Assembly: GCA_031763025.1 (NCBI GenBank)
Contig: JASSKH010000009.1
Location: 5,524,512-5,588,511 of the forward strand
DNA: 64,000 nt
Source of the DNA: Macrocystis pyrifera
Lineage: Eukaryota > Sar > Phaeophyceae > Laminariales > Laminariaceae
Direction of reading: 5' to 3'
Part shown: positions 1,168 to 59,179 of the stretch, in pieces
Numbering within the stretch: position 1 is the first letter of the stretch
How the letters are laid out: each line of letters starts with the position of its first letter
Notes under the pieces: generated by a model
The model's input: only the letters and a program-made list of their open reading frames with translations
What the model was told of the DNA's origin: nothing
Database searches by the model: none
Made by a program: the position numbers and the translations under genes

Positions 1168-1256
1168 GGGGGGGGGGGGGGTGTACTCATTTGTTGCTTG
1201 CTTTATTCATTCGATAGTCGATCATGCATCCCTTTCGAGACGGAGCATCGTTCCTA

Positions 1257-1721
1257 TCACGGGAGTCCATATGATATAGAGGCTACGCCAAACACAAAGC
1301 CTATATATTTACCTATTTTTACCTACCATAGCTGTTTTGTTTTTGTTTTTTGTTTGTTTTTTTTTAAATCATCACTTTTACTTTCCAGCCCACTCGTAGG
1401 AGGTTTTACCCTCGACGCTCTTCCTCTGGACAAGCCGTGGTCACAGCAGGTGTCGTCCCTTCTCCCCCCCCCCGGTACGTGCCTTTAGTTTTTATCGCGC
1501 ATAGGGTTCAGCATTCCCACTGCTCGTCGATTTTCATCGAATGTTACAGCCAACTCACGCTCTCGCGCTTTCCGCTCATCGATTTTTTATGCAAGAAAAA
1601 GTCCCTACGAGCATGCACGCACTCGGTGAGACGAGAACTTACGAAATTGATCTTGATAGGCTCGCGGACCACCTACCAAGCCGCCGGGGACGCCGGATAT
1701 GTGTACTATGGTCTCCCGTAA
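1257..1721. mobile_element. MITE-1, split by a tSINE
   Basis: The left part begins TCACGGGAGTCCATA after a TA at 1255-1256. The right part ends ACTATGGTCTCCCGTAA before a TA at 1722-1723. These match the two termini of the ~105 bp family (consensus described at 3395-3501). About 360 bp holding the tSINE separates the halves. Confidence 0.65.
1365..1697 (-). mobile_element. tSINE copy 1 (tRNA-derived SINE), intact C tract
   Basis: On the minus strand it starts with a tRNA-like head (1697 to about 1605) carrying a degenerate A box GGCTTGGTAGGTGG and a B-box-like region. It continues through a conserved ~250 bp body and ends in an A-rich tail (T-rich at 1335-1364 on the plus strand). The body contains a short C/G homopolymer (1466-1476) between GTCGTCCC and GGTACGTGCC blocks. 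This copy shows the site uninterrupted; the copy at 19935-22135 has a LINE inserted there. Confidence 0.7.
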
Positions 1722-2052
1722 TAGTCGAAATAGAGACGCCTCGAACAGCTCGGCGCTCACGACGCCGTTTCCATAGATGACCTAGAAACGTTTTGCTAAT
1801 CTTGTCCGCTTCCTGATTCGCCGCCTGTGGCCACACCATCTATCTCCTACGATAGCGATCGCTACCGTCTTGTTTACGAGACTCCTCCATGTCACATTCG
1901 TCTATTTTCCTCCTCTCTCTTTTCCTCTAACCTCGCTGACACGTCAATTGCAGGGGGGGGGGGGGGGGGGGGGGGGGGGGGAGAAGGGGCGATGTTATCT
2001 TGCGTGTTCTACGCGTACCACTCTGACCCGATATATTACAACCGTTTGTATT

Positions 2053-2582: not shown

Positions 2583-2663
2583 GTAGTCCGTTGGGCTGGT
2601 AGGTAAAAGGTTAACCGATCGCCTACCCAATCTAAGCCTTATAAGACTCCCCCCCCCCCCCCC

Positions 2664-2742
2664 GGCGTTGTAGGGATGCGAGGGTCTATGGCCATACGAC
2701 TACGGCCATGCATGAGATCGACTACATCTCTCCTATCGAGTA
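2664..2742 (+). mobile_element. CTN fragment between two C tracts
   Basis: Contains the CTN 3' landmarks (AGGGATGCGAGGGTCTATGG, ACGACTACGGCCATGCATGA, final CGAGTAC). It is bounded by C runs at 2649-2663 and 2743-2752. The 5' truncation point falls exactly at the first C run. Confidence 0.75.
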
Positions 2743-2827
2743 CCCCCCCCCCTGGAACGGGCCGGATATACGGGTCGACGCGTGCCACCAACACGCGGTT
2801 CAAAATCTTGGGGATCCAGAAGTATTT

Positions 2828-3989: not shown

Positions 3990-4500
3990 TTGTACTCTTT
4001 TTCATGCGTGGCCGTAGTCGTATGTATGACCATAGACCCTCGCACCCCTACAATGCCGGGACGGAGCGCGTCGGGTTTTCACCGACCAGGCAGACATTGC
4101 TTGCTTGCACCAAGCGCGAAGCGCCGTGAGGTGTTGGGCGAGTCACATGAAGGGTGAGCTGCATCCTACCAAGAACCGCTTTAGAGGCGGACTTTCTTGC
4201 ACATGGATGGCAGCATCAATTAATTGATTTTATTTCTGGTGTGGCCACTTCCAGAGACAGCAACGGGCTTTCTATTTAACTGCCTCGTGGGTGCCTCACC
4301 ATGTCCACACTGCGCGATACGAGCATCCCCCTTGTGCGGAGTAAGGGTTCTCTACGCACAAAAATGATCTAACTCGACCGCCAGCGGTGGTAGCCGTCCC
4401 CCCCCCCAAAAAAGAAACCGGTAGCCTGCCTGTCTAGCTCACGCAGTGAGAGGCGTGTTTTATAGCGTCGTCGCCAACCGACGCCAACCCAACCTATGTA
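3990..4500 (-). mobile_element. CTN, near full-length copy
   Basis: The whole ~510 bp aligns in order with the copies at 48405-48918 and 58540-59066. On the minus strand the 5' end is AGGTTGGGTTGGCGTCGGTT, then a GCTCACTGCGTGAGC hairpin, a CTGTCTCTGGAAGTGGCCAC block, TAGGATGCAGCTCACCCTTC, and the 3' GGCCATGCATG region. Its 3' end runs into a G run on plus (3978-3989), that is a C tail on its own strand. It has no ORF and no clear tRNA or 7SL head, and is probably mobilised in trans. Confidence 0.75.
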
Positions 4501-5088
4501 CATATATATATATATATACCAGGTAAATAATAGTCATGGCGGGGGGGGGGGGGCACCACCACCAGCTTTTTGAGGGTGTTCATTCCCTCGATCAGCTCAC
4601 CGCTCCCTGTAAAATACAATGTGAAACGGCGGAAAACCACCAGTATACCGTAAAATGGCGTAAAACCATTGACATACCGTAAATTCGCGTATCACCACTG
4701 ATGTATCTTAAATTGGCGTTTGCTCACGCCGAAGGGGTTCGGAGTTTCCACATGGGTGAGTAAGCGTATTATTTTACGGGATATAGAGGACACCGTCCCG
4801 TGACGGCTAAAACATGTGATGACGTACACACGTACGCACATACACCATAGCGACATCATCGACTGCTGACTGCGACGCACCAGGTGCAATATGACCGTCA
4901 CCAGACGAGTACGTACGATATACATATTTAGTCTAGGGTCGGTTCGAGCCAATTTTTCATTTTTCTTGGCGACTTTTGAAATGTTGCATTGTTATGCTCT
5001 TCTCCCCGTGCGGGCGACGTAAACCGAACCTCGTATCCCTCACTATCTCTGCTTCCAGGTATCCATAGCCATGTCTATAAATAGCTAC

Positions 5089-5276
<188 letters not shown>

Positions 5277-5456
5277 AAGTAGTACACCGTAGTAGTGTCA
5301 ATAGTAGTATTAATAGTATATATTAATAGCCTCTTTTTCTGCCCACTAACAACCTAGTAGACCTGAGCTGAGTAGGCAGCGCCGCGCATCCGCCGTGGGT
5401 GGTGTCCAAGGGAATCGGGGGGGGGGGGGGGCGGGGGGGGGGGGGGGGGGGGGGGG

Positions 5457-5900
5457 CGTACTCATCTGTTGCTTGCCGTAGTCATTTGACCATTGACCAC
5501 GCATCCCTTTCGAGACGGAGCACCGTTCCTACTCCTAATAGAGACACCTCCAACAATTGGGCGCACATTACGTTTTTTCCATAGATTACATAGAAACCTT
5601 CTGCTAATATTATCCCCTTCCTGTTTGGCCTCCTGTGGCCACCATCTATCTCCTAGGATAGCGATCGTTTTCTTGCTGATATTCATTGTATCAAACTCCT
5701 CCATGTCACATCCGTCTATTTTCCTCATCTCCTCTTTCAACACATCCCGTTCCTCCTTGTATATTTCACATTCTCCTACTATGTGAGTTCTACTCTCTAT
5801 TGCTTTGCCACACGGGCACACATCTGTGCATCTACTTCCTCCTCCTCCCGGCTACTGGTGTACCTCTTTCTTCTTTCTGGCAGGTCCAGGTCCCCTAATC
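5457..5900 (-). pseudogene. CTL LINE C-terminal fragment between two G tracts
   Basis: On the minus strand this encodes the LINE C-terminus: a GDLDLPERRKRYTS segment, then a zinc knuckle of C-x-C-x8-H-x4-C form (CPCGKAIESRTHIVGEC), then WWPQEAKQEGDNISRRFLCN, ending QMTTASNR and a stop. A frameshift near 5822 separates the first segment. The fragment is bounded by G runs at 5433-5456 (its 3' side) and 5901-5917 (its 5' truncation point), which are C runs on its own strand. It is a dead, 5'-truncated insertion. Confidence 0.85.
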
Positions 5901-8618: not shown

Positions 8619-8699
8619 CGTACTCATCCTCTTGTTTGTTGCTCGCCTTAAGTCATTTGACGATTGACTACGCATCCCTTTCGAGACGGAGCAGCAGCG
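8619..8699 (-). mobile_element. CTL terminal fragment (~80 bp) between G runs
   Basis: Reads GTACTCAT, then GACGATTGACTACGCATCCC and TTTCGAGACGGAGCA, the reverse complement of the LINE's last ~80 bp. It abuts G-rich sequence at 8608-8618 and a 22-nt G run at 8701-8722. Confidence 0.75.
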
Positions 8700-10039: not shown

Positions 10040-10054
10040 TTAGTTATAAGAGAG

Positions 10055-10094
<40 letters not shown>

Positions 10095-11183
10095 CCCCCC
10101 TCCGCCTCCTCGCCTCTCGTCTTCCCTCCCCTGGCGGGCCACGACCGCCTCGCCCACGACTCGAGGTTTCGGAAGGGCGCCTCCACCACTAAATGCAGAG
10201 CGGTGGCCGCGGCAAACGTTCCCATGACGACGCCCATGTACGTGACGGAGAGTTCCGCCCAGGTCAACTTCACCGCGCTCTCCCGCCGCCCGTACATCAC
10301 CGTCAGCACGCAGGGGTGGGCCAAGTACGCGCAGTAGGTGAGCCTGGAAGGCGTCGCCCACGAGGGCCGCGTCAGCACCCACCCCACCAACCCGCCGCGC
10401 CCCAGGAAGCAGAGCGCGCACATCAGCGCCACGCCGAGCGCCCACGCCGGCCTGGAGAACGCGAGGTAGAGGTGGTCCGCCCAGGGGGACACGCTGCTCT
10501 CCGTCAGGTCTTGGTAAGCCCAGTAGGAGCCATACACCGGCAGGGCTAGGAGGGCGGCGGACGCGACGGCCACCATCGCGGGAGCCGCCCCCGACGCCGC
10601 TTTGCCGTGCCGAACGAGGAACCCTTCCTCGCCAGTCTCGACGGCTCCGAGGCGAGTTGCCGACCTCCATGCTGCGGACATAGGGTTAGCGCCGCCCTCG
10701 GCGTTCTCGGGGTCGTCCCCGGCGCCGCCGCTGCCGCCGCCACCAGCACCACCACCAGCAGCAGCAGCAGCGGCGGCGGCGGCGGCGGCGGCGGTCAGAC
10801 CTCGGCCACGACCGACACCGCCCCGGAAGTTGGTGTGCCAGGCGAACCCGCAGAGCAGACCGACCACGTACACCGGGCAGCGGGTCCACGGAGAGGAGTA
10901 CGCCTCCACCCAACCGTCCCCGTTAGCGGCGTTGAAAAACGCGAACCTCACGTCCTCTCCGAAGCCGAGCCGGAGAAGCGTGTAGCCGCAGCTCGCGGCT
11001 AGGGCGGCGAAGGCCGCGGCGACGGCGGTCCTCGGGCGGCTGTGGTACAGGGCCACGAGGGGCACACCGGCGACGAAGAACATCGTGTCGTTGGATAAGT
11101 ACCAGCTCACGCCGAGACACCCGCCGGCGAGAGGTGGCCAGGGGACCACGTTCGACAAGTAGGTGATCTCGGCCCACCAGTAT
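10040..11183 (-). CDS. acyltransferase exon 3: C-terminal membrane half
   Basis: Acceptor TTAG at 11187-11184. The exon opens YWWAEITYLSNVVPW (residues 668 on), the usual segment after the CRRYWW boundary in this family. Several hydrophobic helices follow (MFFVAGVPLVALY, VYVVGLLCGFAWH, MVAVASAALLALPVYG, ALGVALMCALCFLG, VTYMGVVMGTFAAATALHLV). Between helices there is a poly-Ala/poly-Gly loop coded by GCN repeats. The last ~15 codons read poly-Gly because a 36-nt C tract (10056-10091, plus strand) lies inside the ORF before TAA at 10040-10042. The conserved part ends near EAPFRNLESW, so the Gly tail looks like a recent addition. Confidence 0.85.
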
Positions 11184-14100
11184 CTAACGAGGAGGCGGGC
11201 GGGTATGGGCGGGGGGAGCGGGGGGTCGTGTACGCAGGTGAAAGCGGTGAGAAAGTCGCGTCGTTCTCAGCTGTTACACTCACCGGACAACAGATTCACC
11301 AGCCAGGTCAATAGAGCAATACGCGGTAGGTCCTGAGCTTCCGCCATGATACATTGCGTTGCGCGGGATCTGTGTACCCGGAGCACCAAGACTTGGCCAA
11401 GGAAAAGCGTGCGCTGGATCCAGACGCCTTCTACGACAGAGAGGCAGCACCTTTCCGCTCAAAATGTGTTCTGAGATGACGGGGCTCCTTATAACCCAAA
11501 ACCGTCGGAATGATGCCAATCTCGTTTCGAAAAATGACGTGTTTGAATACTTGGGCAATGGGATTATTCATCGGCATGCGATTTGATTTTTTTGCTGGAG
11601 TCAGTTTTCCGGTGAGGCATGGAGCTCCTTAAGGTCCAGTGAGGAGCCTCAGAAAATTAACGGTGAGCCTCCATCGCAGAACGCCTCCCTGCAACGAAAG
11701 AAAATACGGCTCTCGGGACCAGGCAGTGTGCGGGCTATAGCATTATACATACCAGAAGCGTACCTACTCTATATACCCTGGAACACAAAAACAATAATCA
11801 AGTCAGGATCGGTGTTTCTGTGCCATGTGTTAACCGTTGTTAGCATTGAGCCATGCCGTACCCCCGTCCAACCGCACCAACCGCACCGGCAATTAGCCTC
11901 AGAGGCCACGTGTACGGTCTACTCGCGATTCGCGGGGGCACGCGGTGGCCAGAGCGACACCGAGCAAGGGCCTTCGGGAAACACCGGGAGCGCGACGTGG
12001 GGAGGGGGGTGGGGGGGGGCTGCAGTGGGCGTCGAAACATGCATGAGGATAGAACCCAGATATGTACGACACTGCTACTGTACTGCTGCGGCTGCTGCTG
12101 CTAAAACCGCCGACGGCCCATCGACCTCATGAGAAAAAAAAAAAAAAAAAAAAAAATGAAAGGTGCGCGGCTGTGACGTGATGCGTGAAATGCCATACCA
12201 TACTACTAATACTATACCATACCATGATACTATTAATACTACACGCAGCTTGCAGAAAGAAGATGAGTTTAGAGGGGAAAAAATCGATCTCACAAATGAG
12301 AGTTCATTGACCCTTCTATTGATAGGACTGCAGTCCTGTTTTGGGGACGAACAAGTTAATCTCCAAGTATTACGGGGGCCCGTAGTAAATAGGACCTACG
12401 GTACACACTAAAACCTATATATTTACCCATTTTTACTAACAATATTTGGTCATATTAACAGTACGTAGTTTGTCCCCAAAACGGGACTCCAGTACAAAAA
12501 GAGACAGGGCGCTCTGTTTTCAACTACGTAAATAAGACAACATACTACAGAAATGTAGGGCTGCGGCATTACCGTCCTCACTTTCTATTACGGGGGGGCA
12601 TAGTAAATAGGACCTACGGCACAAACAAAAACCTATATATTCACCTATATTTACTAACAAAATTTGGTCCTATTTACTATGGCCCCCCGCAATAGTAATA
12701 TCACGCACCGTGTTCCAAGCGCACTATATCTGTCATACGATATACCAGGTAAATATTAATAGTCAGTCCTACGCTCGGAGCTCAACCAACACACCGGGGA
12801 AGAGGAAGCAAAATGACTTGCAAGTTCCAACACCAACATATATCATATGTACGACAAATCAACATGTGTTGCGCTTCTGTCGTATATACGTACGCAATCT
12901 TTTTTACTGCCCTGCCTCCTACACAGCGAGCGGTGGGTAAACCACGCGTCCGCCCAAACGTTGAAGCCCTTCACTTTCTTCATGGAACTAAAACGTATGT
13001 GCGGATCTCTCATCAGAAAAGTACCAACAAAGAGAGGCCGAGCACTACTACTGTGTAACATCGTCGGCGCACGGACCACGAGCCACACCCGCGGCCGACT
13101 TCTTCCCGCCGCCGCCGCCGCCGCCGCCGCTGCCGTGGCAAAAAATTCCGAGGACCCGGTAGACCAGGGATCAGCGCCACCATCGCTCACCTATCGCCGA
13201 CTATTTATCCCAAGCTTCTACAGAGCCACACGAAATATCTAAGACAAACTATGGCACTTGTCTGCTGCCATCGTATATGTTACGCATATCCCGACCATAA
13301 TTTGTTCTTTAAAAAAAAAAAGGTCCACGTACATACAGCAGATGCGCGAGCGAGACCAGCACATTCTTTCCCGAGGTATTCTTCCATCACTCCAGACAGA
13401 GTTAGTGTTGGAGCCCGTCTGCCTGCCTGCGACTACGGACCGCATTGTGTTACTATTACTGCTGTACTGCTGTATTGTGGCGATGAGTTCATGTGAGAAC
13501 AACAACAAACAATACCGTTTATTCGTTTATTAATATTACTACTAATATTACGGGGGTCCATAGTTAACAGGACCAATGGCATAGATAAAAACCAATATTT
13601 ACGGGGGTCCATAGTCAACAGGACCTATGGCATAGATAAAAACGTATATATTTAGGTATTTTTACTAACAATATTTGGTCCTGTTTACTATGGTCCCCCG
13701 TAATATTTATAGTACGAGAGTGGAGTTCGAAGTCGGCGTGACTTCAGTCAACCGTTTTACAACAACAACAACATGATACGTGCGCGAAAAAAGAAAACAA
13801 AACTCACCACCACTACGCACTACGTACAAGCACATACCGGTTACAAACAAACAAAAAAACGGGGGAAAAAAAAAAACGAAAGAATACAAAAAAACTCAAG
13901 CTGTGAGGTGAAAACTTTTCTAAAAACTACTAGTACGAGTACCTCCACGCTGAACCGACATACAAGAACCATACATATCGAGATTTAATATACAAACGAT
14001 CCTCATAAATTGAAACAGATTGTTACGTATTTGTGACGTATGGACCGCACCACTCTGCGTGGAAAAGTAAGGATGGTTGCGGTATAAAATATGGAGATCA

Positions 14101-16866
14101 AGCCGATACACAACAGCAGTATACATAGCACAAATGTCGAATACACCCCGCCGCCATGCCCCTCCCACCCTGGTCCATAAGATTATGGAACTACGGATAC
14201 GCATGATATCGAGTACACCGCCCCCCCCAAGCAATGTCTGCCTGGTCGATGGAAATTCGACGTGCTCCGTTCCGCCCCGGCATTTTGTAGGGGTCCGAGG
14301 GTCTACAGTATGGTCATACGACTACGGCCATGCACGATATCGAGTACCCCCCCCCCCCCCCCATCTCCCCCGCCCGCCTTCATGGGACTCGCCGAATACC
14401 TCGCGGCGCTTCGCAAAGCTTGGTGCAAGCAAGCAATGTCTGCCTGGCTGGTGAAAACCCGACGTGCTCCGTCCCGGCATTGTAGGGACATGAGGGTCTA
14501 TGGCCATACGACTACAGTGTCATGCATGATATCGAGTACCCCCCCCCCCCCCCCCCCCCCCCCCCGTTCCCCTTCCCCCCGACCGCCGCTCACCTACGAC
14601 AGCGATCCGCCTGTCCTACCGCGAGGGGCCACCAGTCAGGCCCCTCCCCGAGCAGGGGGAGAACCTTCCACACGAAAAACGTCGTGAAGGCCAGGGTGGG
14701 CGTAAGCCGGAGGTACCGGTGTAGGTATGCTTTCGCCATCCACCGCCACCGCCCGAGAGACCCCGACCCCAGCTTTGGCAGGAGGACGGCGCTCAAAAGG
14801 AAGCCCGACATGAGGAAGAAGGTATCGACCGCGAGAAAACCTCCCGGTAGTACCTGCGCGGGCAACCTGAACCAATCGTTCGAGACAGGGAGTGCATGTT
14901 CATACGTACGTGGGGGCGTAAGTAGCAAGAATCAGAACCGACCATGGGCCCCCAAACCACGTATCCCGCCATGTTCATACACAAAAAAAAAATGGTCCCG
15001 ATTACCACAGCAGTATGTTCCCCCGGAAAATATATACGTGGGGAGATGTGATGAACACACAGCAGAGGGGATGGGTGGGTTCGGGACAAGATGGGTGGGG
15101 GGGGGTAGCCGACTGGCTGCTGCCGCTGCTGCCGCCGTCGCTGCTGCAGCTGTGGCACTTTATAATTTAAGTCGTTGCCATTTGCTGAACCCACAGGAAA
15201 TGGCCGCGTGAAGCGGTGTTATAAATATGCGTATTGGCGATCAACGCCTGAGCAAATCGGCGCAAAATAGAAAAAACAAGAAAAAAACAGCTCTATTTCC
15301 TCATTTCTCAATACTGGCGTCGCGGAATGCCATGCATCATGCATCCATGTATGCACCACTACGGTTCTACAGGCAGTACATACGAGAATAACAAATATGT
15401 ACGTACGTACGTACGTAGTACCGGCAAGCTATACCCACGCACTCGACATCCTGCATCCAGGGTACCCAGCAGTGTCCGCGCGCTGATTCTTCGTGTAGCA
15501 GATACAAGCTCACCGTGGAGATAAACGCCGACAGACAGACAGACATCATGCATCGCAAGGAGTGCCGGTGTGTACTGCTGCACCTGTGGTGTTGCAAAAG
15601 ACGAGCTCCCAAAGCGTACCAGGTATATATCATGTTATGCATAGTGTTGCCCCACATAGGCTGAAGGGATTGGTGATCTGCCCCTCGTCCGCTTGGCCAC
15701 CATCCATTGTTCCAAGTATTTCGTATACGAATAATTTATCGTATCGATTTCCTCGCTTACGGTTCGTCCGCGCGACAAAACAACCATGTTATGCTGAAAA
15801 AAACAACCATAGTAATAATAACAAAAACAGCAGCGTAGAGAAATAAACCATAAGACAACGACCAACGAAAGCAGGAACATTGGTTGATCTTTCAGCAAAG
15901 CGACGGCATTTTCGTGTACATAGCATCATTATCCCTGCTCCCTTCCCTGTATAGGCCCTATATATACCAGGTGCCAAGGATGAAATAATCATTGGTGCTG
16001 TACTTATTACGGGGGGGCGTAGTTAATAGACCTATGATACACACAAAAAACTATATATTTACCCATTTTTGCTAACAGTATTTGGTCCTATTTACTATGG
16101 TACCCCGGCAATAGTACTCTGGGATACCAGGTACCAGGTATATCGTACCAGGTATGAGAATATCATACCATGCATACCGCAGGTAAGACGCAGCTGCTGT
16201 GCGCCAAAGGTACGGGCAATTTAGATTTATACACCCGTTACGTATAAAATAGTATGCACGAGCGTTTCTATTATCACCAGGTATCACCACACCTCGCGAG
16301 AAGGCCCTTCCCGTGACGGGGCAAGACGTCGACGGTGTTCGTGAAGCCCGGCCCGGAGAGAGCGTAGATCAGAACGTGCCCGAGCACCACCCACATCATC
16401 GACAGCGTCCGCACGCCGTCGAGCGCGCCGAACTCGTCGCCAGCGCGAGGCGGCGCCAGGAGCTTGTCCATGTTCAACATGAGGGAGAAGCACTCCAGGC
16501 AGTCACGCCAACTTGACGAGCCACCATCACCGTCAGCAGCAGTGTCATTGTCGTAGTTGTTGCGAGCAGCATTTTGCCCGTCCGGCGTCGGCGATCCGCT
16601 ATTCCCGCTTTCCCCCCCCGCCGCTGATACCTGTATCTCGTTCAGAATCCCGCGAGTGGTCCCATTAATGCTGTTCGTACTGGAAAAATGACGGCAGGAG
16701 GCGGATGAGGAGCTGCGGAAATGCGCCGGGTTTTGGTTCCCTACCCGCAGTGAGGATGATATCGGGAGCAGTGGCTGTCGGGCGGGATCCTCTCCGTGCT
16801 CGAGAGTATCTCCCTCACTGCTCCTCCTGCTGCTGTGATTGGAGGTTTTTCCCCCATCAAGTTCCA

Positions 16867-16909
<43 letters not shown>

Positions 16910-17170
16910 CTGGTGCGGTCCAATATCCTTCCCCTCCTCGACGCCGTTGGTCGCCCACGTAGTAGCAGTGGTAGTACTACTAATAGTACTAGTGGCAGCT
17001 GCTGCGGCGACGGCGGCGGTGTTGGGTAGCCCTGCTTTGATGCGCGGATCTAGCAGGAGGGTGTTCCGGGTCCACGTGCTGTTGCCGGAGCCCGAGGAGG
17101 GTGTTCGGCCGGTGCCTACTGGTGATAACCCGCTGTTGCCGTTGTTGACGCTCTGCCTCGCCTGCTGCTG

Positions 17171-17208
<38 letters not shown>

Positions 17209-18019
17209 CGGCCTGGTACAGGCGTTGGTGGCGGAGGCGGCGAAGGCGGCGAAGGTGGCGAAGGCGGCGATAATCTGACGCCGTTCCCGCGAGGACCAGA
17301 GCGACAAGAACGCCCAGGAAACAGAGCACGCTTACGGTGCCCGCGTCCGGATAGATGCGAAGCTCGTCCCCACAGGTGAACGAAGTCGACCCCACAAACG
17401 AGGCCGCACTACCAGGGTCGTTGTCGCTGCTGGTCGCAGTGGGCAACAGGCTCGAGGCGTTGACGCTCGCCAGAAGAGCTAGAACTGAGGCGGAGTCGCA
17501 GCTCTGCGGCAAGCACACCCCGATTGAAGCTACTAGGGACATCTGCCCAAGGCAGTAGTGGGCGTCCTCGACGTCGCCACACCCTTGGGGAGAGCCCCGG
17601 TCGCTCAGGTGGAGGTCGGCGAAGAAGGCGGCGTCCTCCGCGAAAGAGGAGTTGCCTCCGAGAGCACCGAGGAGAATCGCAAAGGACTCCAAGACGTGTC
17701 CACTGCTGTAGGAGAGCAGGGTGAGGTGCTCGAAGGAGGATCCCAGCAGTGCCTGGCCACATGGCGTGTCAGACTGGGCCTCCACAGCGCTGCAGACTAG
17801 CTGACACGCGACCTGGACCGCTCGAGTTTTTGGGAAGAAGCGCAAGCAGCCGGAGGAGCACGCATTATCATCACCCACGTCCGTGGCATCAGCATGATAA
17901 GCACGGTTGATTATCGCGTGATCCGTGGCGGCGTAGCTCGCGGTGGTAGTGGTAGAGGTGCAGGCGGCCGCGAAAAGAGCGGCGACCAGAGTAGCTGGCG
18001 AGATTGACACCAACCTCAT
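10040..18019 (-). CDS. NRF-6-like multipass membrane acyltransferase (three exons)
   Basis: Spliced model: exon 1 18019-16293, exon 2 14866-14594, exon 3 11183-10040; 3144 nt, 1047 codons plus stop. Both junctions are GT-AG and fall two bases into an Arg codon, so the frame is kept. The product has the architecture of nose-resistant-to-fluoxetine (NRF-6) proteins: a signal peptide, an extracellular Cys-rich NRF domain, a long low-complexity linker, then an acyltransferase-3 membrane domain. Relatives move acyl groups on or across membranes and in C. elegans affect lipid and drug uptake; the substrate here is unknown. Introns of 1426 and 3410 bp are filled with MITE-1, FB-1 and CTN copies. I chose the Met at 18019 because a hydrophobic signal sequence follows directly; an in-frame Met at 18106 lacks this. 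Polyadenylation and UTRs are not visible to me. Confidence 0.85.
12310..12502. mobile_element. FB-1 copy 4 interrupted by MITE-1
   Basis: Left arm ACTGCAGTCCTGTTTTGGGG, right arm TTTGTCCCCAAAACGGGACT. The loop is opened by MITE-1 at 12370. Confidence 0.7.
12370..12460. mobile_element. MITE-1, right end degraded
   Basis: Begins TTACGGGGGCCCGTAGT after TA. The right end stops after AATATTTGGTCATATTAAC without the terminal CCCGTAA. Confidence 0.65.
12588..12692. mobile_element. MITE-1 complete copy
   Basis: 105 bp with TA on both sides. Termini TTACGGGGGGGCATAGT and ACTATGGCCCCCCGCAA. Confidence 0.85.
13548..13703. mobile_element. two overlapping or nested MITE-1 copies
   Basis: Two successive left termini (13548 and about 13599, TTTACGGGGGTCCATAG) share one right terminus ending ACTATGGTCCCCCGTAA at 13703. 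TA flanks the outer pair. This suggests one copy inserted into another with loss of one end. Confidence 0.75.
14176..14220 (+). mobile_element. CTN 3' tip
   Basis: ACTACGGATACGCATGATAT then CGAGTACACCG, followed by an 8-nt C run that is the 5' border of the next CTN copy. Confidence 0.55.
14229..14346 (+). mobile_element. CTN fragment between two C runs
   Basis: Starts AAGCAATGTCTGCCTGGTCG directly after C run 14221-14228. Ends GATATCGAGTA directly before C run 14347-14362. Confidence 0.8.
14380..14538 (+). mobile_element. CTN fragment with a 27-nt C tail
   Basis: Longer than its neighbour; starts CATGGGACTCGCCGAATACC and ends TGATATCGAGTA at the C run 14539-14565. It inserted downstream of, or into, the tail of the previous copy. 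Confidence 0.8.
14594..14866 (-). CDS. acyltransferase exon 2: core of the acyltransferase-3 domain
   Basis: Residues 577-667. GGFLAVDTFFLMSGFLLSAV is the family's membrane segment with the characteristic VDTFF-SGF motif. It is followed by AYLHRYLRLTPTLAFTTFFV and the GEGPDWWPLAVGQADRCRR boundary. Acceptor TTCAG at 14871-14867, donor CGTAG/GTGAGC at 14594/14593. An alternative acceptor a few codons downstream (CGCAG) would break the phase with exon 1. Confidence 0.85.
14867..16292 (-). other. intron 1 of the acyltransferase gene
   Basis: Donor GAG/GTGTGG at 16292. Contains MITE-1 (16007-16111), three TACCAGGTA motifs at 16125, 16132 and 16146, an ACGT run near 15410 and a CTG/GCC-rich stretch at 15115-15155. 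No coding exon is seen inside. Confidence 0.75.
16007..16111. mobile_element. MITE-1 complete copy in intron 1
   Basis: TA flanks; termini TTACGGGGGGGCGTAGT and ACTATGGTACCCCGGCAA. Confidence 0.85.
16293..18019 (-). CDS. acyltransferase exon 1: signal peptide, NRF domain, Gln-rich linker
   Basis: Residues 1-576. Signal sequence 1-30 (MRLVSISPATLVAALFAAAC). NRF domain about 53-220 with paired cysteines (CSSGC, CQLVC, CGQALLGS, CGDVEDAHYC, SIGVCLPQSC, FTCGDELRIYP). First membrane helix about 226-246 (AGTVSVLCFLGVLVALVLAG). A basic stretch, then two CAG-coded Gln runs (about 273-287 and 370-384) in a 250-residue Ser/Thr/Asn-rich linker. The acyltransferase-3 start is at 509-550 (LECFSLMLNMDKLL, then LDGVRTLSMMWVVLGHVL), with the conserved His in LGH. 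The first exon is long and GC-rich. The Gln-run lengths probably vary between individuals. Confidence 0.85.
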
Positions 18020-18109
18020 CGCCACTGGCTGCGTCGGTGCATGGGTGAGCAGGTTCAAACCGCAAAGGCGGAGGGATTTCACAACATGCCAGAACAATAA
18101 CGCCATTCA

Positions 18110-19915: not shown

Positions 19916-19934
19916 TTCTTTTTTCCTTTTTTTT

Positions 19935-21881
19935 TCGATCATCACTTTCACTTTCCAGCTTAACTCGCAGGAGGTTTTACTCTCAGCGGTCTTCTTCTGG
20001 ACAAGCCGTGGTCACAGGTGTCGTCCCTCCCCCCCCCCCCCCCGCTACTAAGCACAGTAGGCAAAACATTTTGTAAGATTTTGAACGATAGAATGGGAAC
20101 GATGATGGAGAAGGAGGACAAAATAAGCGAAGGACAAGCAGGGTTTAGGCCAAACCGTAGCTGCGTAGACCATGTGTACACCTTACGTAAAGATTATTCA
20201 AGGTAGGAAAGACGCGGGACTAACAACGTACTGTTTCTTTCTAGATGTGCAGAAAGCCTACCACACAGTATGGAGAAATAGATTGTGGGAAAAACTGTGG
20301 GAAATAGGAATCAGAGGAAAGATGTGGAGAATGATGAAAAAGATGACGGAATGTGCGAGAAGTGCTGTGATGCTGGACGGGGAAATATCGAAGTATGTTG
20401 ATATTTTACAAGGTGTTGCACAGGGATGTACGTTGTCACCTAACTTATTCAAGATATATATTAACGACCTGATAGTAGCAGTCGAGGGAGCAAGGCAGGG
20501 AGTCACGGTAGGGGAAGATACGGTGTCGGGATTGATGTTTGCGGATGACTTCGTGGGGATATCAGAAACACCCGAAGGATTGCAGAAACAAATAGAGAAG
20601 GCGCTAGAATACACCAGGAAATGGAGGGTGACGGCGAACGTGAAGAAATGCGCAGTAGTTGTTTGCAACGAAGATAAGGTAACCCCGGTAAATTTCAGGT
20701 GGAAGCGGGGAGAAGATGAATTGCCGATCGTAGACCAGTATACATACCTTGGCGTAGTGATCTCAAAAGACTGCTCTTGGGATACAAATATAGCAAAAGT
20801 AATAGGAAAGGGTAATGCACAAGTAGGCAAGATGGATGCGATCCTAACAGACCCGAACCTTGACACTAGGATTAAGAGATGTATCTTGATGAATGTGATA
20901 GTACCAAAGCTAGAATATGCAGGAGAAGTATGGGAAGGGAACGCGAAACTCGTAAAACAGTTGGAAAAAGTACAAATGACGGCAGCTAAAAAATCCTAAG
21001 ATGCTCAAGTACGACTAGTAATACAGTATTAAGAGCAGAACTGGGAATGCGCCCACTCAAGACAAATAGAGACATGAGAAAGTTGAAGTGGCAATATAAA
21101 GTAAGGAACATGCCAAAAAAGAGGTTGCCAGCCATAGTTGATAGAGCTGTATGGGAGAAAGTATCAAAAGGGCGATCTGCAATAAGGTGGGATGGCGTAG
21201 TTGAGAAAGTATGGAAGGATCTAGGGGGAAACCAAGTAGAGATGATGTCCGCCGGGAAGTTTGGGAGGTACGAGGCAGAAGTAGAAGAAAGGATAGAAAG
21301 AAGGGAAAGGCTAGCGCTAAGAAACAGGGTGGAATCGGGAAAACACTTGGAGATATACGGGGGATTGAGGGAAGGAATAGGAATGAAAACGTATTTGCAT
21401 GGCCCAATGGACTTCGCGAAAACGCTGAAACTGCGCTTTCGTGTAGGGGACCTGGACCTGCCAGAAAGAAGAAAGAGGTACACCAGTAACCAGGAAGAGG
21501 AGGAAGTAGACGCACAGATGTGCCCGTGTGGCAAAGCAATAGAGAGTAGAACTCGCATAGTAGGAGAATGTGAAATATACAAGGAGGAACGGGATGTGTT
21601 GGAAGGAGATGAGGAAAATAGACGAATGTGACATGGAGGAGTTTGATACAATGAATAGTAGCGAGAAAAACGATCGCTATCCTAGGAGATAGATGGTGGC
21701 CACAGGAGGCCAAACAGGAAGGGGATAAGATTAGCAAAAAGTTTCTATGTCATCTATGGAAACAACGTAATGAGCGCCCAATTGTCGGAGGTGTCTCTAT
21801 TAGGAGTAGGAACGGTGCTCCGTCTCGAAAGGGATGCGTGGTCAATGGTCAAATGACTAAGGCAAGCAACAAATGAGTACG

Positions 21882-21917
<36 letters not shown>

Positions 21918-22135
21918 CGTGCCTTCATTGTTTATCGCGCATAGGGTTCAGCATTCCCACTGCTCGTCGATTTTCATCGAATGTATATAGCTGACTCACG
22001 CTTTCGCGCATTCCGCTATTAATCAATTTTTGTGCTAGAAAAAGTCCTTACGAGTATGCACTCGGTGAGACTTGAACACACGAAATTGATCGTAGTAGCC
22101 ACGCGGACCACCTGCTAAGCCACCGGGGACGCCAG
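19935..22135 (-). mobile_element. tSINE copy 2, interrupted by a CTL LINE
   Basis: 19935-20028 matches the tail half of the SINE (GGACAAGCCGTGGTCACAGG, GTCGTCCCTCC). 21914-22135 matches the head half (GGTACGTGCC, CATAGGGTTCAGCATTCCC), ending in the tRNA-like head. Minus strand head: A box GGTGGCTTAGCAGGTGG, B-box region GTTCAAGTCTCACCGAG. The junction between halves is exactly the internal C tract, now split into 20029-20043 and 21882-21913 around the LINE. Confidence 0.85.
20044..21881 (+). pseudogene. CTL LINE: reverse transcriptase and C-terminal zinc knuckle, 5'-truncated and frameshifted
   Basis: Non-LTR reverse transcriptase, missing its start and any endonuclease. In order: VGKTFCKILNDRMGTMME and GQAGFRPNRSCVDHV (finger region), FLDVQKAYHTVW (first catalytic Asp), ILQGVAQGCTLSPNLFKIYI, LMFADDFVG (FADD motif), YTYLGVVIS. 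A thumb-like region follows, then LPERRKRYTS and a knuckle related to CPCG-x8-H-x4-C in which this copy has Arg for His, and a PSRKGCVVNGQM end before the stop. Reading frame breaks near 20195, 20990 (an A run) and 21600 and after, so it is inactive. The element ends ATGAGTACG and enters a 32-nt C run. The clade cannot be fixed without a tree. Confidence 0.9.
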
Positions 22136-40684: not shown

Positions 40685-41882
40685 GCAACGGCTTCGAGCA
40701 GTGGTTGCGGCAGCATTAGCAACATTAGAAGCAGCAGAAGCAGCAATTTTTTTTTTTTTTATTTTTTTTTTTTTTATCCATCACTTTTACTTCCCAGTGT
40801 GATATGAGTAGAGCACACCAGCCCACTCGTAGGAGGTTTTACCCTCGACGATCTTCTGGACAAGCCGTGGTCACAGGTGTCGTCCCTCTCTCTCCCCCCC
40901 GGTACGTGCCTTTATTTTTTGTCGCGCATAGGGTTCAGCATTCCCACTGCTCGTCGATTTTCATCGAATGTAGCTAACTCACGCTCTCGCGCTTTCCGCT
41001 TATCAATTTTTTATGCAAGAAAAAGTCCCTATGAGCATGCACTCGGTGGGACTTGAACCCACGAAATTGATCTTGACAGGCACGCAATGGATCGCCGCAG
41101 CGTTGGCAGCAGTAGCGGCATAGCAAAGATATGATAAAAAAAGCAGAAACAAAGTATGTACCCTGGTATGCCGCGACCGCAAAAACTACGGAATTTCATT
41201 GGCGAAACAAAAATATGTACACACAAATGACCAGCATGATGTACAACGCAGCAGCAGCACCACAGCAGCGTAGCACCTATATGGAAAGAACGAAGCCCAA
41301 AACGAGAAAAAGCAGTACGTACGCAAAATGCAGCAGCAAAATGACCAAAATATTTGTTCCAGGTACCCAAACGACCATTTAGGTACAAAAACGATCAAGA
41401 AAAACAATAATCCGAGTACATGCGAACATCCAGTGAATATTGCGGCAGCATTATTATTAGCATTAGCATTAGCAGCAGCAGCAGCAGCAGCAACGGATCG
41501 CCGCAACGTTGGCTGCAGCAGCAGCAGCAGCATAGCAACGATATGAAAAGGAGGAAGAAAAAAACTACGTACCCTGGTCGGCCGCAATCGCAAAACGTAC
41601 GGTAATTATTGACGATACAGAAATATGTACACACACACGAGTGTAGTAATACACACACGAATCACGTCCAGCATGATGTACGGCAACAACGCAGCAACAC
41701 CACAAAAAAAAGTCGTTGTCGATACAGAAATATGTACACACGCACAAGTGTAATAGGCACACAAATCATGTCCAGCATGATGTGTACGGGAACAACGCAG
41801 CAGCGCCACAAAACGACAAAACGACCAAGAAACACAATTATCCGAGTACATACGAACATTCAGTGAATATTGCGGCACCACT

Positions 41883-44235: not shown

Positions 44236-44350
44236 TCTTAATGGAGCAAAACCCCCGGGACGAAGTTCGGGGTCGATTTACTTCAAAAACATGGGGAGCG
44301 GGGCTGGGAGGGGGGACGGGGGAGGGGGGGGGGAGGGGGGGGAGGGGGGT

Positions 44351-44410
44351 GTACTCGATAGGAGAGATGTACTCGATCTCATGCATGGCCGTAGTCGTAT
44401 GACCATAGAG
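44351..44410 (-). mobile_element. CTN 3' end next to G-rich DNA
   Basis: GTACTCGATAGGAGAGATGT then ACTCGATCTCATGCATGGCC and GTAGTCGTATGACC, the inverse of the CTN tip, between G-rich runs (44310-44349 and 44411-44440). A duplicated GTACTCGAT resembles the copies at 2664 and 58540. Confidence 0.65.
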
Positions 44411-46324: not shown

Positions 46325-47944
46325 GTTTGAGATATTTGCTGGGTTTTTGTTGTTGTTGTTGTGTGGGTTGGCTGGCTCTGGTCGTCGTGTCGGTCGATCG
46401 GCTGGTTGGTTGTGATGGTCGGTTGGTTGGTTGGTTGGTCGGTTGGTTGGATGGTTGGATGGTTGGATGGTTGATTTGGTTGGTTTAGCTATTGGTTACG
46501 ATTCTGGACGGAAGTACCGGGAACGTTTGTGCGTCAATGTGAAGACCCAACGGTCCTTAATCTCCAGTCCGGGATGATAGTTTGCTTGGTTGCTCGGTGA
46601 CTTGCTTGGGTCAATGGTTGCGTGTTTCGCTTGTTTGGTTGGTTGATAATTGGTTGGTTGGTTGGTTGGTTGGTTACCTAGTTAGTGGGTTGGGACGTGG
46701 GTTGGTTGGACGAGTGATTGCGTGGTTCGCTTGGTTGGTTGGTTGGTTGGTTGATATGTTTTTGGTTGGTTGGTCGGCTGGTCGGTTGTTTCTTGTGTTT
46801 GATTGGTTAGCTGGTTGGTTGGTTGATGTGCTGTTGGTTGGTTTGGTTGGTCGGTTGGCTGGTTGGTTGGTCAGCTGGTTGGTTGTTCTATGTTTGATTG
46901 GTTAAGCTGGTTGGTGGGTTGGTGGGTAGGTTGGTCGGTTGGGTTGTTGATGTGTGCGTTTTGTTTAGTGGATTGGTTGGGTGGGCGATTGCGCGTTTCG
47001 CTTGTTTGGTTGGCTTTTCGGTCATTCGGTTGATTGACTGATTGGTTGATCGACTGGTTGGTTGGTTGAGTGTTGTTGACCTGACTGTATAGCTGGTTGG
47101 AATGTTGTTGTGGCTCAGTTGGTTTGTTGATTGTGCGACCCGTGGGTGACGTTGGGTTGGAGGCGATGGTTTTTCCCACGATCAGGTGTCTCTTCGGTGG
47201 GCAACCGCTCCCGTCAGCGCTGGTGCTGTACCGTGCACCCCGTGCAGAATGAGAAACAACGCCAGGGTGACCGCTCTTCATGTTGCGGACTTTTCTCTGC
47301 GCTCTGCTGCTGGGCTGGAGAGTCGGGTAGAGATTCGACCGACGCGTGCGTGTCGTTGCAGGACCTCGTGTGCACGGCCGCCATTTTCCGCGTTTGCGCG
47401 TTTGACTGCTCACCACGCGGGTCTCTCCCCCTCTTGTAGGTTGTAGGCAGTGTTTTCAGGCATCAGGCAGACCACGTTCTACCGCGGATCCTACTGCTAG
47501 TTTTACGGGGGGCCGTAGTAAATAGGACCTACGGTACACGCAAAAACCTACGTGTTTCCCCATGTTTTTTCCAAACGTTATTTGGTCCTGTTTACTATGG
47601 TCCCCCGTAAAGTTGTACGTTTGCCCGTTTTTTGTTTTGTTGGCCAAGAGCCGTGTCGTGCGTACCTATATCCCACCCGGCAAGCATGCGCGCAAAGAAA
47701 GAGCTGTGGCGGGTGTGGAGCTCCTGTACTCGAATCGAGCGAGGAATACACCTATCGTAGCGCACAATGATCTGTATCATCTGTATCATCTGCGTGATAT
47801 GTATGATATGTTGTGATCTGTATCATCTGTCCTGTGTTTGCAGGGAGCCTGTCTGAATTGTTCGACGCGTGCACTGTTGTCCCGTGCGTGGCCCGCTCCC
47901 GCATGCGACTACCATCCCGACTACGGTCATGCATGATAATCAGT

Positions 47945-47989
<45 letters not shown>

Positions 47990-48082
47990 CGAGGAATAGG
48001 AGCGGTGCTCCGTCTCGAAAAGGGTGCGTGGTCAATGGTCAAATGACTATGGCATGCAACCAATGAGTGCCCCCCCCCCCCC

Positions 48083-48129
<47 letters not shown>

Positions 48130-48917
48130 ACTGTCAATTAATCCGAAGCTGTTGTTCATTGTAAGTCGGCCTCACGAGCGGGTCTTGGTACAAGTTGCAG
48201 CTCACCCTACGTGCTGCTCGTTATTGCACCTCACGGCCGCTTCGCGGTCGGTGCAAGTGTTGTGTATGCCTGGCCGGTGCAATCCCGACGTGCTCCGCCC
48301 GGGCATTGTATGCAGGGATACCAGGGCCTATGCGTCATACGACTACGGCCATGCATGGCATGAGCACACACACACACCCCCCGCCCCTCCCCATTCGTAT
48401 GTTTTATACATAGGTTGGGTCGGCGTCGGTTAGCAACGATACTGTAAAACATGCCGCTCACTACTTGAGCTAGACAACCAGGGTACCGTTTTTTTTCTGT
48501 TTTGTTTTGGCGGTGGGTCACAGCTGGTGGTTAAGTTAGATAATGTGTGCGCGGGGTGGACAACCTTTACTCCGCGAAAGGGGAATTAATCATATCACGT
48601 ACTGGTAGTGTTTATGGTAAGGCACCAAAGAGGCAGTTGCATAGTACTGTACAACCATTGCTTGTCTCTGGAAGTGGCCCCACCGGAAATTGAATTACAT
48701 CATTGAAGCTTTCATCCATACGCAAGCCCGCCCAACAAGCGGTTCTTAGTAGGATGCAGCCCATCCTTAATGCGACTCGCCGGACACCTCGCGGCCCTTC
48801 GCGCTTGGTGCAAGCAATGCCTGCCTGGTCGGTGAAAACCTGACGGGCTCCGTTACGGCATTGTAGAGATGCGAAGGGTCTAAGGTCATACGACTACCGC
48901 CGTGCATGATATCGAGT

Positions 48918-48987
<70 letters not shown>

Positions 48988-49127
48988 CCGCCCAGCCCAG
49001 CATCGTATACAGGGATGCGGGGGTCTATGATCGTACGACTACGGCCATACATGTCATGGGTACCCCCCCCCCCCCCCCCCCCCCCCCCCCCTGTCCACCT
49101 CGTCGCCCCCCACGTCCCCACGCTGCC

Positions 49128-52218: not shown

Positions 52219-52270
<52 letters not shown>

Positions 52271-54784: not shown

Positions 54785-57700
54785 GTGTGAGGGGAATTGG
54801 AGGTGGAAGGAGGGGGCGGTAAGGGGGAAGGGGGTGCTCGTGTCGTGCATGGCCGTAGTCTGATGAACATAGACCGGGGGAGGGGGGGGGGGGGGGGGGG
54901 GGGCGGGGGGGGGGGGGGGGTTCTTATTGTCAGGTATGGGCGTAGTCGTATGACCATGAACCCCTCGCATCCCTTTACACATTGCCGGGACGGAACCCGT
55001 CGGGTTTTTGCCGACCAAGCAAATGTTGCTTGCACCAAAAAGCGCGAAGCGGCCGTGAGGAGTTCCGCGAGTGGCGTGAAGGGTTAAATAACATCCCACC
55101 CACGTGAGAAGCGTTTATCAGGCGGGCTTTCTTGCGCATGAATGGCGGCGTCGAACGCGCCCGGGGGGGGGGGGGGTGGGTACGTTTGCCTGCGATCTAC
55201 GCGAGTGCTTGGCGTCCAGAGCATAGCGAGGAGAGGAGGAGAGAGTAAGCAGATGGCTGACGCGCGGGTGTGTGTTTGTGTCCTACCCACGCCCGGCTGC
55301 TGCTGGCTGGTCCGCTCCTAAGGTCGTTTCTGCGACGCTGGAAGCCGGCATGCTGGCGTGCTTCCGCTCCCTCGACTGCGACTGCGGCTGCGGCTTCGCG
55401 ACGGATGTGTGATGTGACACCCACCCCCGTTGCCCCGTGTGTGCGGGTGGATACAAGGATAACTCGTATCAATATAACGCATGTATGTGCGGCGAAACCT
55501 GCTGCCCCTTTGCTTTTTTTTTTCGTTGTTTTTTTCACGAGATTGTGTCTCAACAGGGCTGTGTATTGTCTCAGGTTTTAGGGCGAACGTACCGGTTATA
55601 CACCGTAAATTGGCCAAATGTGCAAAAACAAAATCGCTCCCAAGAACCGGAACCGCAAACAGAGCTGACGAATGAACTCTAAAACGTAAAAAAAAAATAG
55701 GGGGGGGGGGGGGGGGGGTTCCAAGTTTCTGTGCAGGCGTTGTTCACCGGAGGCCAGCACTCATTTCCCGAAACCGCACTTGTTTTGCACACCGCATGTG
55801 ATTTTGAGAACTGGTGAGAACCTGTTTACCGGTATCAATGGTGGTGATAGTGATATTCTCACGATATTACCGAGGACCATAGTTGATAGGACCTGCGGTA
55901 CACACAAACACCCATATGTTTCCATATTTTTACTAGGAATATTTGGTCCTATTTACTATGGCCCCCCGTAATAGCTCCTTTCCCTGAAATGTAACACCCT
56001 TGATGCCTGTACGAGCAGTAGGCACGGCTTGTAGGTAAGGTATATATACGTGCGGCGGAACCTGTTGCGTTTCGTAATTTTATTTTTATTTTTTGTTTTT
56101 CTTGCAGGTGGATTTCAAGACTCTAAAAATGATGACTGAGGAAGACGAGGTTTCCAGCATCGGCATCCCGCTGGGTGAGTGCGCAACAGTGACTATTTCC
56201 CCCCCTGCACCGCGCCCTTTTCTACTAACTGCGTTGCTATTTACCGTTGCTTTGTACTCCTACTCCTTCCAGCGGGACGTACTCTTTGTAGCCTGTTTTT
56301 TTTTTTGTGTCCGCGGTCTTGATATACAAATCTATGCATATATATATATATATAGATTATATATATATAGAATGAGCTACTGTGAGAACATCATCACCAT
56401 CATCCTTGTCACGACCGTGCGTATGAACAGCTCCAACTGAGTTTGTCTTTCCCTATGGTCCGTGCAGCCGATTTTTTTTCGTCGTAGTTTTAAGCGTCAA
56501 GGTACTCGTATCTTCTGTTTCGTGAAGTAAAAACACCACCAACGCGGAAAGTTTTGCAGCTTTTTTTTTTTGTTTTGGGGGGGGGGGGGGGGGGGGGGAG
56601 GGGGGGGGGGGGGGGGGCGGGGGTTGCTTCGAATGGTCTTCTCGCCTCTTGATCGCCGATAGACCGTAATGGTTCCATGATTACGGGGGGGCGTAGTGAC
56701 TAGGGCCAAATATTGTTAGTAAAAAATTGGTAAATGTATAGGTTTTTATGTATACGATAGGTCCTATTAACTATGGACCCCCGTAATAGTTGAACACGGA
56801 GATTACAGTTCGGGATTCCAAAATATACATGCGGAAAAGGCCAGGTCTCAGAATATGACACGCTGGTAATGTTTTCGATGTGGGCCCGGGGATGAGGTTT
56901 TGTTTCGTTTCGATACGGGGATCATCACACTTTAGGACTTCAAACTACAGGACGGAAAACTATTATTACGGGGGTCCATAGTTAACGGGACCAAATTTTC
57001 TTAGTAAAAATAGGTAAATATATAGGTTTTTATGTACACCATAGGTCCTGTTAACTATGGACCCCCGTAATAATAGTGCTCTCGTGTAGCCTAGGCTCGT
57101 TTGTTTTTTTTACACTTTTTTTTTTTTTATGTTGACTAAACGTTTGCTACTCGTATATAATCAATGTTTGAGTCCTACACTGCACATTTTGAGCTGATGT
57201 TGCCAATTTTTCAGGGTGAATTTTTCTCCATTGCCCTCAAAATACTTGATTTTGGTGAAAGAAAAAATACATGTCGAAATCAGTTTTTTTTACTGCCTCG
57301 GTCGTGGCGATTATCGCTGAGAGGTCGATTGTGGTTCGATGTATTTAAAAGGTCATTAACCGAAAAAAAAAAATGGACACCGAAAACAAAATTGTATCAT
57401 CTGTTTTCGTTTTTCATCCCCCGTAGTGTGAGAGTGCTCCCCAATGTGTATTTGCCCTTCTTTTTTATGACTCATCCCAGCATGGCAGGAGTTGCACGCT
57501 TTGCCTCGTGCGGCAATATCTTCTGACCGCTTGAGCTCCTCAAGTGAGCACCTATTATTACGGGGGGACCATAGTAAACAGGACCAAATATTGTTAGTAA
57601 AAATAGGTAAATATATAGGTTTTATGTGTACCGTAGGTCCTATTAACTATGGACCCCCGCAATAGTATAGCATACCTGGTACCGGTTAGTGTGACACCTT

Positions 57701-58324: not shown

Positions 58325-58539
58325 AAGATTGGCCACCGCCCCAAAAGGCTGGCTATGGCTCTTCTCGGTTTTCAAGTGTTACCCTCGCGCATGCGGGGGA
58401 ACCGCGCACGTATTCCAGCTGGACGGACGCGATTGCTGGTCGCGTACTGTCCCTGTTGCTTCGGGGGCATACCCGAAAGCGATGCATCCTCCGATATTGA
58501 CGCACAGTATTTGGTTCTGCTTGCTACCTGGTATTTTAT

Positions 58540-59066
58540 ATATGGGTTGGGTTGGCGTCGGTTGGCAACGACACTGTAAAACATGCCGCTCACTACGTGA
58601 GCTAGACGTCCAGGGTACCTTTCTTTTTTTTCTTTTTCTTTTTGGCGGTCGCCCATAGCTGGTCGTCTAGTTAGATCATTTGTGAGAAGTAAATAACCTT
58701 TACTCTGCACAAGGGAATCGATCGTATCACGTAGTGTTCAAGGTAAGGCACCCAAGAGGCAGTTACATAGTACTCCCATTGCTGTCTCTGGAAGTGGCCA
58801 CACCGGAAATTAAACTAACTCATTGAAGCTGTCATCCATATGCAAGAAAGTCCGCCTCACAAGCGGTTCCTAGTAGGATGCAGCTCACCCTTCATGCGAC
58901 TCGCCGGACACCTCACGGCGCTTCGCGCTTGGTGCAAGCAATGTCTGCCTGGTCGGTGAAAACCCGACATGCTCCGTCCCGGCATTGTAAGGGATGCGAG
59001 GGTCTATGGTCATACGACTACGGCCATGCATGAGATCGAGTACATCTCTCCTATCGAGTACACCCC
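58540..59066 (+). mobile_element. CTN near full-length copy with a short C tail
   Basis: GGGTTGGGTTGGCGTCGGTT at the 5' end, GCTCACTACGTGAGC hairpin, CTGTCTCTGGAAGTGGCCAC, TAGTAGGATGCAGCTCACCC, ACTACGGCCATGCATGAGAT. The end is duplicated (CGAGTACATCTCTCCTATCGAGTAC-like, as at 2664 and 44351). Only seven C follow, so this copy has little homopolymer. Confidence 0.8.
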
Positions 59067-59179
59067 CCCGCCGTAGTACGAAGTGATATCGAACGCGAAA
59101 CGAAGTCGATACGATATCATCGATGCACGAAAAATGAAATGGACACGATATCGATACCTAATGAAAATGATATCGGGTA

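Follow-up and report, generated by a model that had tools for sequence, protein, structure and literature searches.

A family of non-LTR retrotransposons in the kelp Macrocystis pyrifera, hereafter family A, probably targets C homopolymers and inserts by target-primed reverse transcription (TPRT) at C:G tracts, together with a short non-autonomous partner, family B. This reading draws on 64 kb of one genome (a single stretch of 64,000 nucleotides, hereafter referred to as the window), and the C tract is shown as the target at one site, where one of 13 clusters of copies could be compared with empty sites. Within the window, most copies have C on both sides and lie in C-sense orientation, the two families have a common 3' end, and copies are joined in arrays.

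By direct reading, we found three copies of one SINE in the window, of which two are uninterrupted and one is interrupted by a LINE:

1360..1700, minus strand: SINE copy 1, an empty site, with C10 at 1464-1473
40770..41092, minus strand: SINE copy 2, an empty site, with C7 at 40894-40900
19925..20028, minus strand: host SINE copy 3, 3' part up to the C tract, aligning with copies 1 and 2
20029..20043, plus strand: C15, the 5' junction tract (target), at the position of the C tract of both empty copies
20044..21881, plus strand: LINE copy A1, 1838 bp, 5'-truncated, with a frameshifted reverse transcriptase (RT) domain
21882..21913, plus strand: C32, the 3' junction tract (tail and remaining target)
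21914..22135, minus strand: host SINE copy 3, 5' (tRNA-like) part, in which GTTCAAGTC resembles box B and another stretch loosely resembles box A

The sequence at the tract reads GTCGTCCCTTCT-C10-GGTACGTGCC in copy 1 and GTCGTCCCTCTCTCT-C7-GGTACGTGCC in copy 2, and the order in copy 3 is GTCGTCCCT-C15, LINE A1, C32 and GGTACGTGCC. The SINE sense is minus, and the RT of A1 reads in the C sense (plus). Once the LINE is omitted, the flanks of copy 3 abut across the tract and match copies 1 and 2 at 84-88% identity, and the tract itself differs from that of the empty copies mainly in length. A first-pass annotation had reported that this SINE C tract is occupied by an 1838 bp LINE fragment with C runs at both junctions, that the LINE lies in the C sense and carries an RT, and that the C tract was the target of A1; direct reading against the two intact copies, the C15 and C32 runs, the PF00078 domain with an element end of TGA-GTACG before the C run, and the filled/empty alignment all agree with it. 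Both flanks also match one SINE, a failure of which had been named as counter-evidence. Because one filled site can be set against two empty ones, the C tract at the A1 site is older than the LINE insertion and was present before the LINE arrived. The pyrimidine/C tract makes up about 14 of the 341 bp of the SINE, and as 16 of 20 copies of the two families repeat the pattern, the position of A1 within it is not a matter of chance. A search with the flanks of the 13 clusters detected no second filled/empty pair in the window, both flanks meeting elsewhere for A1 only.

The description of the SINE as tRNA-derived is weakly supported: a box-B consensus pattern is present in copy 3 and missing from copy 1, ARAGORN predicted no tRNA gene in the window, and Rfam returned nothing. 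SINE copy 1 itself lies inside a stretch of about 460 bp with the inverted ends CTATCACGGGAGTCCATA and TATGGTCTCCCGTAATAG, and this stretch splits LINE copy A3 (1183-1917). Since A1 sits in a SINE and a SINE-bearing stretch splits A3, the nesting both ways suggests that the SINE and the LINE were active over overlapping times.

BLAST revealed five further 3'-end copies of the LINE, giving six copies of family A in the window:

5456..5897, minus strand: A2, between C17 (5901-5917) and C24/C15 (5433-5456/5417-5431)
1183..1917, minus strand: A3, split, with C14 at the 3' end and, 35 nt beyond the upstream BLAST boundary, C29
47989..48069, plus strand: A4, between C43 and C13-A-C46
54023..54128, plus strand: A5, between C12 and C21 (BLAST start 54052; 5' extension z 3.5)
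8621..8693, minus strand: A6, with C22 on the 5' side and CCCCCCTCCCC on the 3' side

The RT domain of A1 (PF00078, E 2.5e-21) is of LINE type, with R2 and LINE-1 ORF2 among its best PDB matches, and its reading frame is broken by frameshifts. The ORF ends in …KASNK with a TGA stop at 21874-21876, followed by GTACG and the C run, which places the stop 5 nt before the run; A1 thus has the minimal 3' UTR, closed by a simple repeat, that is expected of RTE and RTE-X elements. The 5' truncation points of the family are variable (LINE positions 1, 1402, 1564, 1760, 1764 and 1774) and its 3' ends are constant, five copies aligning within 4 nt of the common end and A6 within 9 nt, as in a LINE. Given these differing truncation points, the C run found upstream does not represent an end of the element.

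We obtained 139 matches to the A1 protein, and among the best 120 of these the top match (P0001) is 86% identical across the full query; those with a named organism come mostly from Ectocarpus sp. CCAP 1310/34, and others from Sphacelaria, a Parasphingorhabdus metagenome bin (presumably contamination), a loach and a mussel. One relative, P0064, has an APE-type domain (PF03372) before PF00078, and its RT is 62% identical to that of P0001 over 284 aa. Endonuclease sequence was seen in the relatives P0064, P0092 and P0100 and is absent from the truncated copies in the window. A search of public viral and genome contigs, reaching close relatives only, detected no relatives of P0001, and 3'-end patterns gave 0 matches in genome contigs and a single one in viral contigs (L001), which lacks BLAST similarity to the window; further pattern searches gave 0.

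The partner family B has 14 copies in the window and an element length of about 520-560 bp, with a 5' part of its own. Copies b1, b2 and b3 start at about one place and are near full length; these and three shorter copies are as follows:

3990..4540, minus strand: b1, near full length, with C13 and C12-G-C12 at its ends
48393..48918, plus strand: b2, near full length, C-rich on the 5' side and with C68 on the 3' side
58525..59068, plus strand: b3, near full length, an exception without an upstream C tract and with C7 at the 3' end
2649..2752, plus strand: b8, in the order C15, element, C10
7544..7590, plus strand: b9, with CCCCCCTCTCCCCCC upstream
44343..44409, minus strand: b10, with C-rich tracts on both sides

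Both families end in …GAGTAC(C)n. The part shared by A and B is the terminal ~40 nt (GGTCAtacGACTACGGCcatGCA…GAGTAC), and BLAST matches of B queries to A are confined to the 3' end. Family B therefore combines a 3' end in common with an autonomous LINE and a 5' region of its own, as expected of a LINE-dependent partner. Profile searches from the 3' ends, with models trained on the very copies that they recover, returned all 6 A ends and all 14 B ends, and nothing further except one weak cross-hit per family. We detected no conserved RNA fold in the common 3' ~45 nt, and a 3' hairpin spotted by eye (GGUC-NNNN-GACU) was rejected, with 0 pairs predicted from the 20-row alignment. Three copies (b8, b10 and b3) form a sub-group with a longer 3' end, at 2700-2742, 44343-44409 and 59000-59068, respectively, in which ATCGAGTAC, or a sequence close to it, is repeated ahead of the C run (...ATCTCTCCTATCGAGTAC).

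We then scored the surroundings of all 20 copies; a tract counted as C-rich if 10 or more of 12 nt were C, and it was sought in the 40 nt that precede the 5' boundary in the element sense. Such a tract precedes 16 of the 20 copies, against a background of 2.55% over the whole window and 1.5% in the sequence between elements, and an uninterrupted C run of at least 9 nt precedes 11 (background 1.98%). This scoring used hand-adjusted starts for A5, b7 and b8, and strict BLAST starts gave identical counts of 16 and 11. No copy (0/20) has an upstream G tract, that is, one in the opposite sense, the highest count being 7 G in 12. On the 3' side the same measure detected a C-rich tract in 17 copies, missing b3, b9 and b12. 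Among the four copies that fell short upstream (A3, b3, b4 and b14), the extension of b4 reaches C46 directly (z 5.8), that of A3 to C29 is not significant (z 1.6), and b3 is genuinely exceptional, its flank on the upstream side being non-C. Within the window, the majority of copies thus lie in C tracts (16/20), the opposite of what had been named beforehand as evidence against the target reading.

Setting aside copies preceded by the tail of another listed copy leaves 13, of which 10 are C-rich upstream (binomial 3e-14); the C-rich stretch upstream of b7 may be an unlisted old tail, and this independent count would then drop to 9 of 12. As a control we used a MITE-like repeat of ~105 bp with inverted ends, present in 20 copies in the 64 kb (e.g., 47503-47610), and on neither strand is any of its 40 ends (0/40) close to a C/G tract. 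At the 5' junctions, the base that directly follows the C run is G in 8 cases out of 13 (A1, A2, A4, A6, b1, b8, b11 and b13). This excess is not explained by simple annealing and, together with the few unmatched bases at some junctions, possibly reflects non-templated addition.

Half of the copies (10/20) belong to three head-to-tail arrays:

47918..49091, plus strand: b14-A4-b4-b2-b11, with C43, C13AC46, a shorter C-rich stretch and C68 between the copies and C29 at the end
14180..14565, plus strand: b7-b6-b5, with a short C-rich stretch and then C16 between the copies and C27 at the end
54834..55176, minus strand: b13-b12, with C14 upstream and C16GC22 between the copies

All seven array junctions are head-to-tail, five of them through a C run of at least 9 nt (up to 68 nt) and two through a shorter C-rich stretch, and the C tail of one copy seems to serve the next as a landing site. 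In the window as a whole there are 63 C/G runs of at least 9 nt against 0.56 expected under a first-order model. A/T runs of at least 9 nt are also in excess (81 against 1.16 expected), so that homopolymer excess alone proves nothing; among runs of at least 15 nt, 35 are C/G (longest 68) versus 13 A/T (longest 27). A copy of A or B adjoins 26 of the 63 C/G runs of at least 9 nt and 17 of the 35 of at least 15 nt, where adjoining means within 25-30 nt of hand-extended boundaries. The other 37 C/G runs of at least 9 nt have no adjacent copy, e.g., those at 52219-52270 (52 nt) and 10056-10091 (36 nt), and the two families do not explain their origin. The window also carries an acyltransferase gene (10040-18106, minus strand) with Acyl_transf_3 (PF01757) and at least two exons, which we take to resemble NRF-6-like acyltransferases. 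Its domain at 16277-18106 (minus strand) gave 10 protein matches, of which the best, and the sole one with an organism name, is from Laminaria digitata (60% identity over 94%). Together with the matches to the RT, this agrees with a brown-algal source of the window and speaks against an animal one.

Under the proposed mechanism, the LINE endonuclease or a pre-existing nick would open the G strand of a C:G tract, and the nicked strand would anneal to the C run at the 3' end of the element RNA and prime reverse transcription. The C tail could be encoded in the element or arise by read-through of a downstream tract, and B would be mobilised by the enzyme of A. Each fresh C tail would then offer a target for the next copy, through which head-to-tail arrays could grow. 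Copies in the C sense, lying mostly between two C-rich runs and building arrays, are what follows from G-strand priming on a C tail.

The same flanks could be produced if the enzyme had no specificity of its own and fragile C:G tracts supplied the nicks or breaks that the LINE enters, with annealing of the C tail selecting 3' ends in G. We regard this as possible though clearly less likely than C-tract targeting. C:G tracts are nick-prone and can form G-quadruplexes, long C/G runs are abundant in the window (63 of at least 9 nt, 0.56 expected), and the orientation and the C on both sides would be explained equally well; against it, though not decisively, the MITE-like repeat is unbiased (0/40), but that repeat would move by a different chemistry. 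It is improbable that the elements insert anywhere and bring or expand a C tail, with upstream runs being older tails or products of slippage. The 3' runs are often long (32, 46, 68) and the upstream tract within arrays is the tail of another copy, but the upstream tract of A1 belongs to the SINE and is seen empty in two copies, which already contradicts this account for A1, and an upstream C-rich tract is still present in 10 of the 13 copies that have no listed older neighbour. It would have a parallel in RTE elements with SSR tails, whose insertion has been described as apparently not sequence-specific (Tay 2010, PMC2887409).

The arrays might have been built by tandem template jumping or by unequal exchange between C tracts, in which case their insertions would not be independent. 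Such events would leave head-to-tail order and C-rich joints, both of which all three arrays have; yet the largest (b14-A4-b4-b2-b11) mixes both families at very different lengths, and copies outside arrays have the same flanks, which makes this origin unlikely. We also considered whether the element itself made the 5' C runs, and rejected this for A1, where the SINE sites are seen empty. Non-templated C addition by RTs would yield G rather than C in the sense strand; as a source of the 5' runs it was rejected for this wrong strand letter and for the length of the runs (12-43 nt upstream of A). Long homopolymers are error-prone in sequencing and a run of N lies near 39,700 in the window, but the element boundaries are orderly at many separate loci and the SINE flanks are intact, which makes an assembly artefact or misread homopolymers very improbable. 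Targeting of C tracts by family A, with B as its partner, remains the reading that we prefer.

Zorro3 of Candida albicans, a member of the L1 group, offers a close comparison. All 30 of its new copies were reported at poly-A of 4-21, beginning and ending with poly-A, and annealing of target and tail was proposed (Goodwin et al. 2007, PMC1965478). Family A resembles it in the homopolymer target, in copies bounded by that homopolymer and in the annealing model, and differs in using poly-C in place of poly-A and in that the targeting of Zorro3 was shown experimentally. Two features of the Zorro3 pattern appear in the window: the homopolymer is present at the empty site for one insertion (two empty SINE copies), and most insertions lie in that homopolymer (16/20; 11/20 with a run of at least 9). 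Microsatellite-specific LINEs have also been described, including Togen at (TG)n and some HERO elements, and the early-branched groups, Tx1 and R1 are said to contain the majority of target-specific families (Kojima and Jurka 2015, PMC4640811). Family A is like these in its specific or simple-repeat target, but the clades differ and the C homopolymer is unnamed in that account. Among APE-type clades, site-specific LINEs are described only in R1 and Tx1 (Nakatsuka and Ohshima 2026, PMC13295347).

The published descriptions of Ectocarpus families lead us to infer that A and B belong to RTE-X. In Ectocarpus, RTEX-1 and RTEX-2_Ec32 are abundant LINEs accompanied by RTEX-N1_Ec32, an element of ~600 bp with a common 3' end that exceeds every other single family in abundance (Dinatale et al. 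2025, PMC12477816), and RTEX-1 has been reported in Saccharina (PMC4421812). Compared by description only, A and B likewise form a brown-algal LINE and short partner with a common 3' end. The main text of the Ectocarpus study uses "homopolymer" 0 times, and we saw no mention of a C-tract target in it (PMC12477816). Lepidopteran RTE elements have a very short, SSR-bearing 3' UTR and generate SSRs (Tay 2010, PMC2887409), which the A1 stop 5 nt before the C run resembles. Bov-B and plant RTE elements have an SSR-like 3' tail, a SINE shares its 3' end with Bov-B, and RTE-clade insertions show a weak Tn-TA signature (PMC13295347). In that source, Bov-B copies are rarely flanked by a target resembling their 3' repeat, whereas most copies of A and B are.

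The first-pass annotation had held that a LINE specific for C/G homopolymers is not a standard described class. We found no C-homopolymer-specific LINE among the literature matches listed (titles and the beginnings of abstracts, with subscription papers and supplements outside this scope), and to that extent the statement stands; its claim to novelty is softened, because Zorro3 targets poly-A and the families fit the described Ectocarpus RTE-X. Homopolymer and microsatellite targeting is itself known, and the C-targeting LINE probably sits in a clade not known for such targeting. We see about even chances that brown-algal RTE-X is, as a lineage, C-homopolymer-specific, a third site-specific APE clade besides R1 and Tx1 that forms self-seeding arrays and supplies much of the long C/G content. 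If this is true, insertions re-make their own target, and C tracts, LINE and partner spread together. With a C-specific RTE-X, site-specific LINEs would gain one more clade and a new type of target, mirroring the poly-A of Zorro3 through G:C pairing, and the long C/G tracts in the window would have a possible cause.
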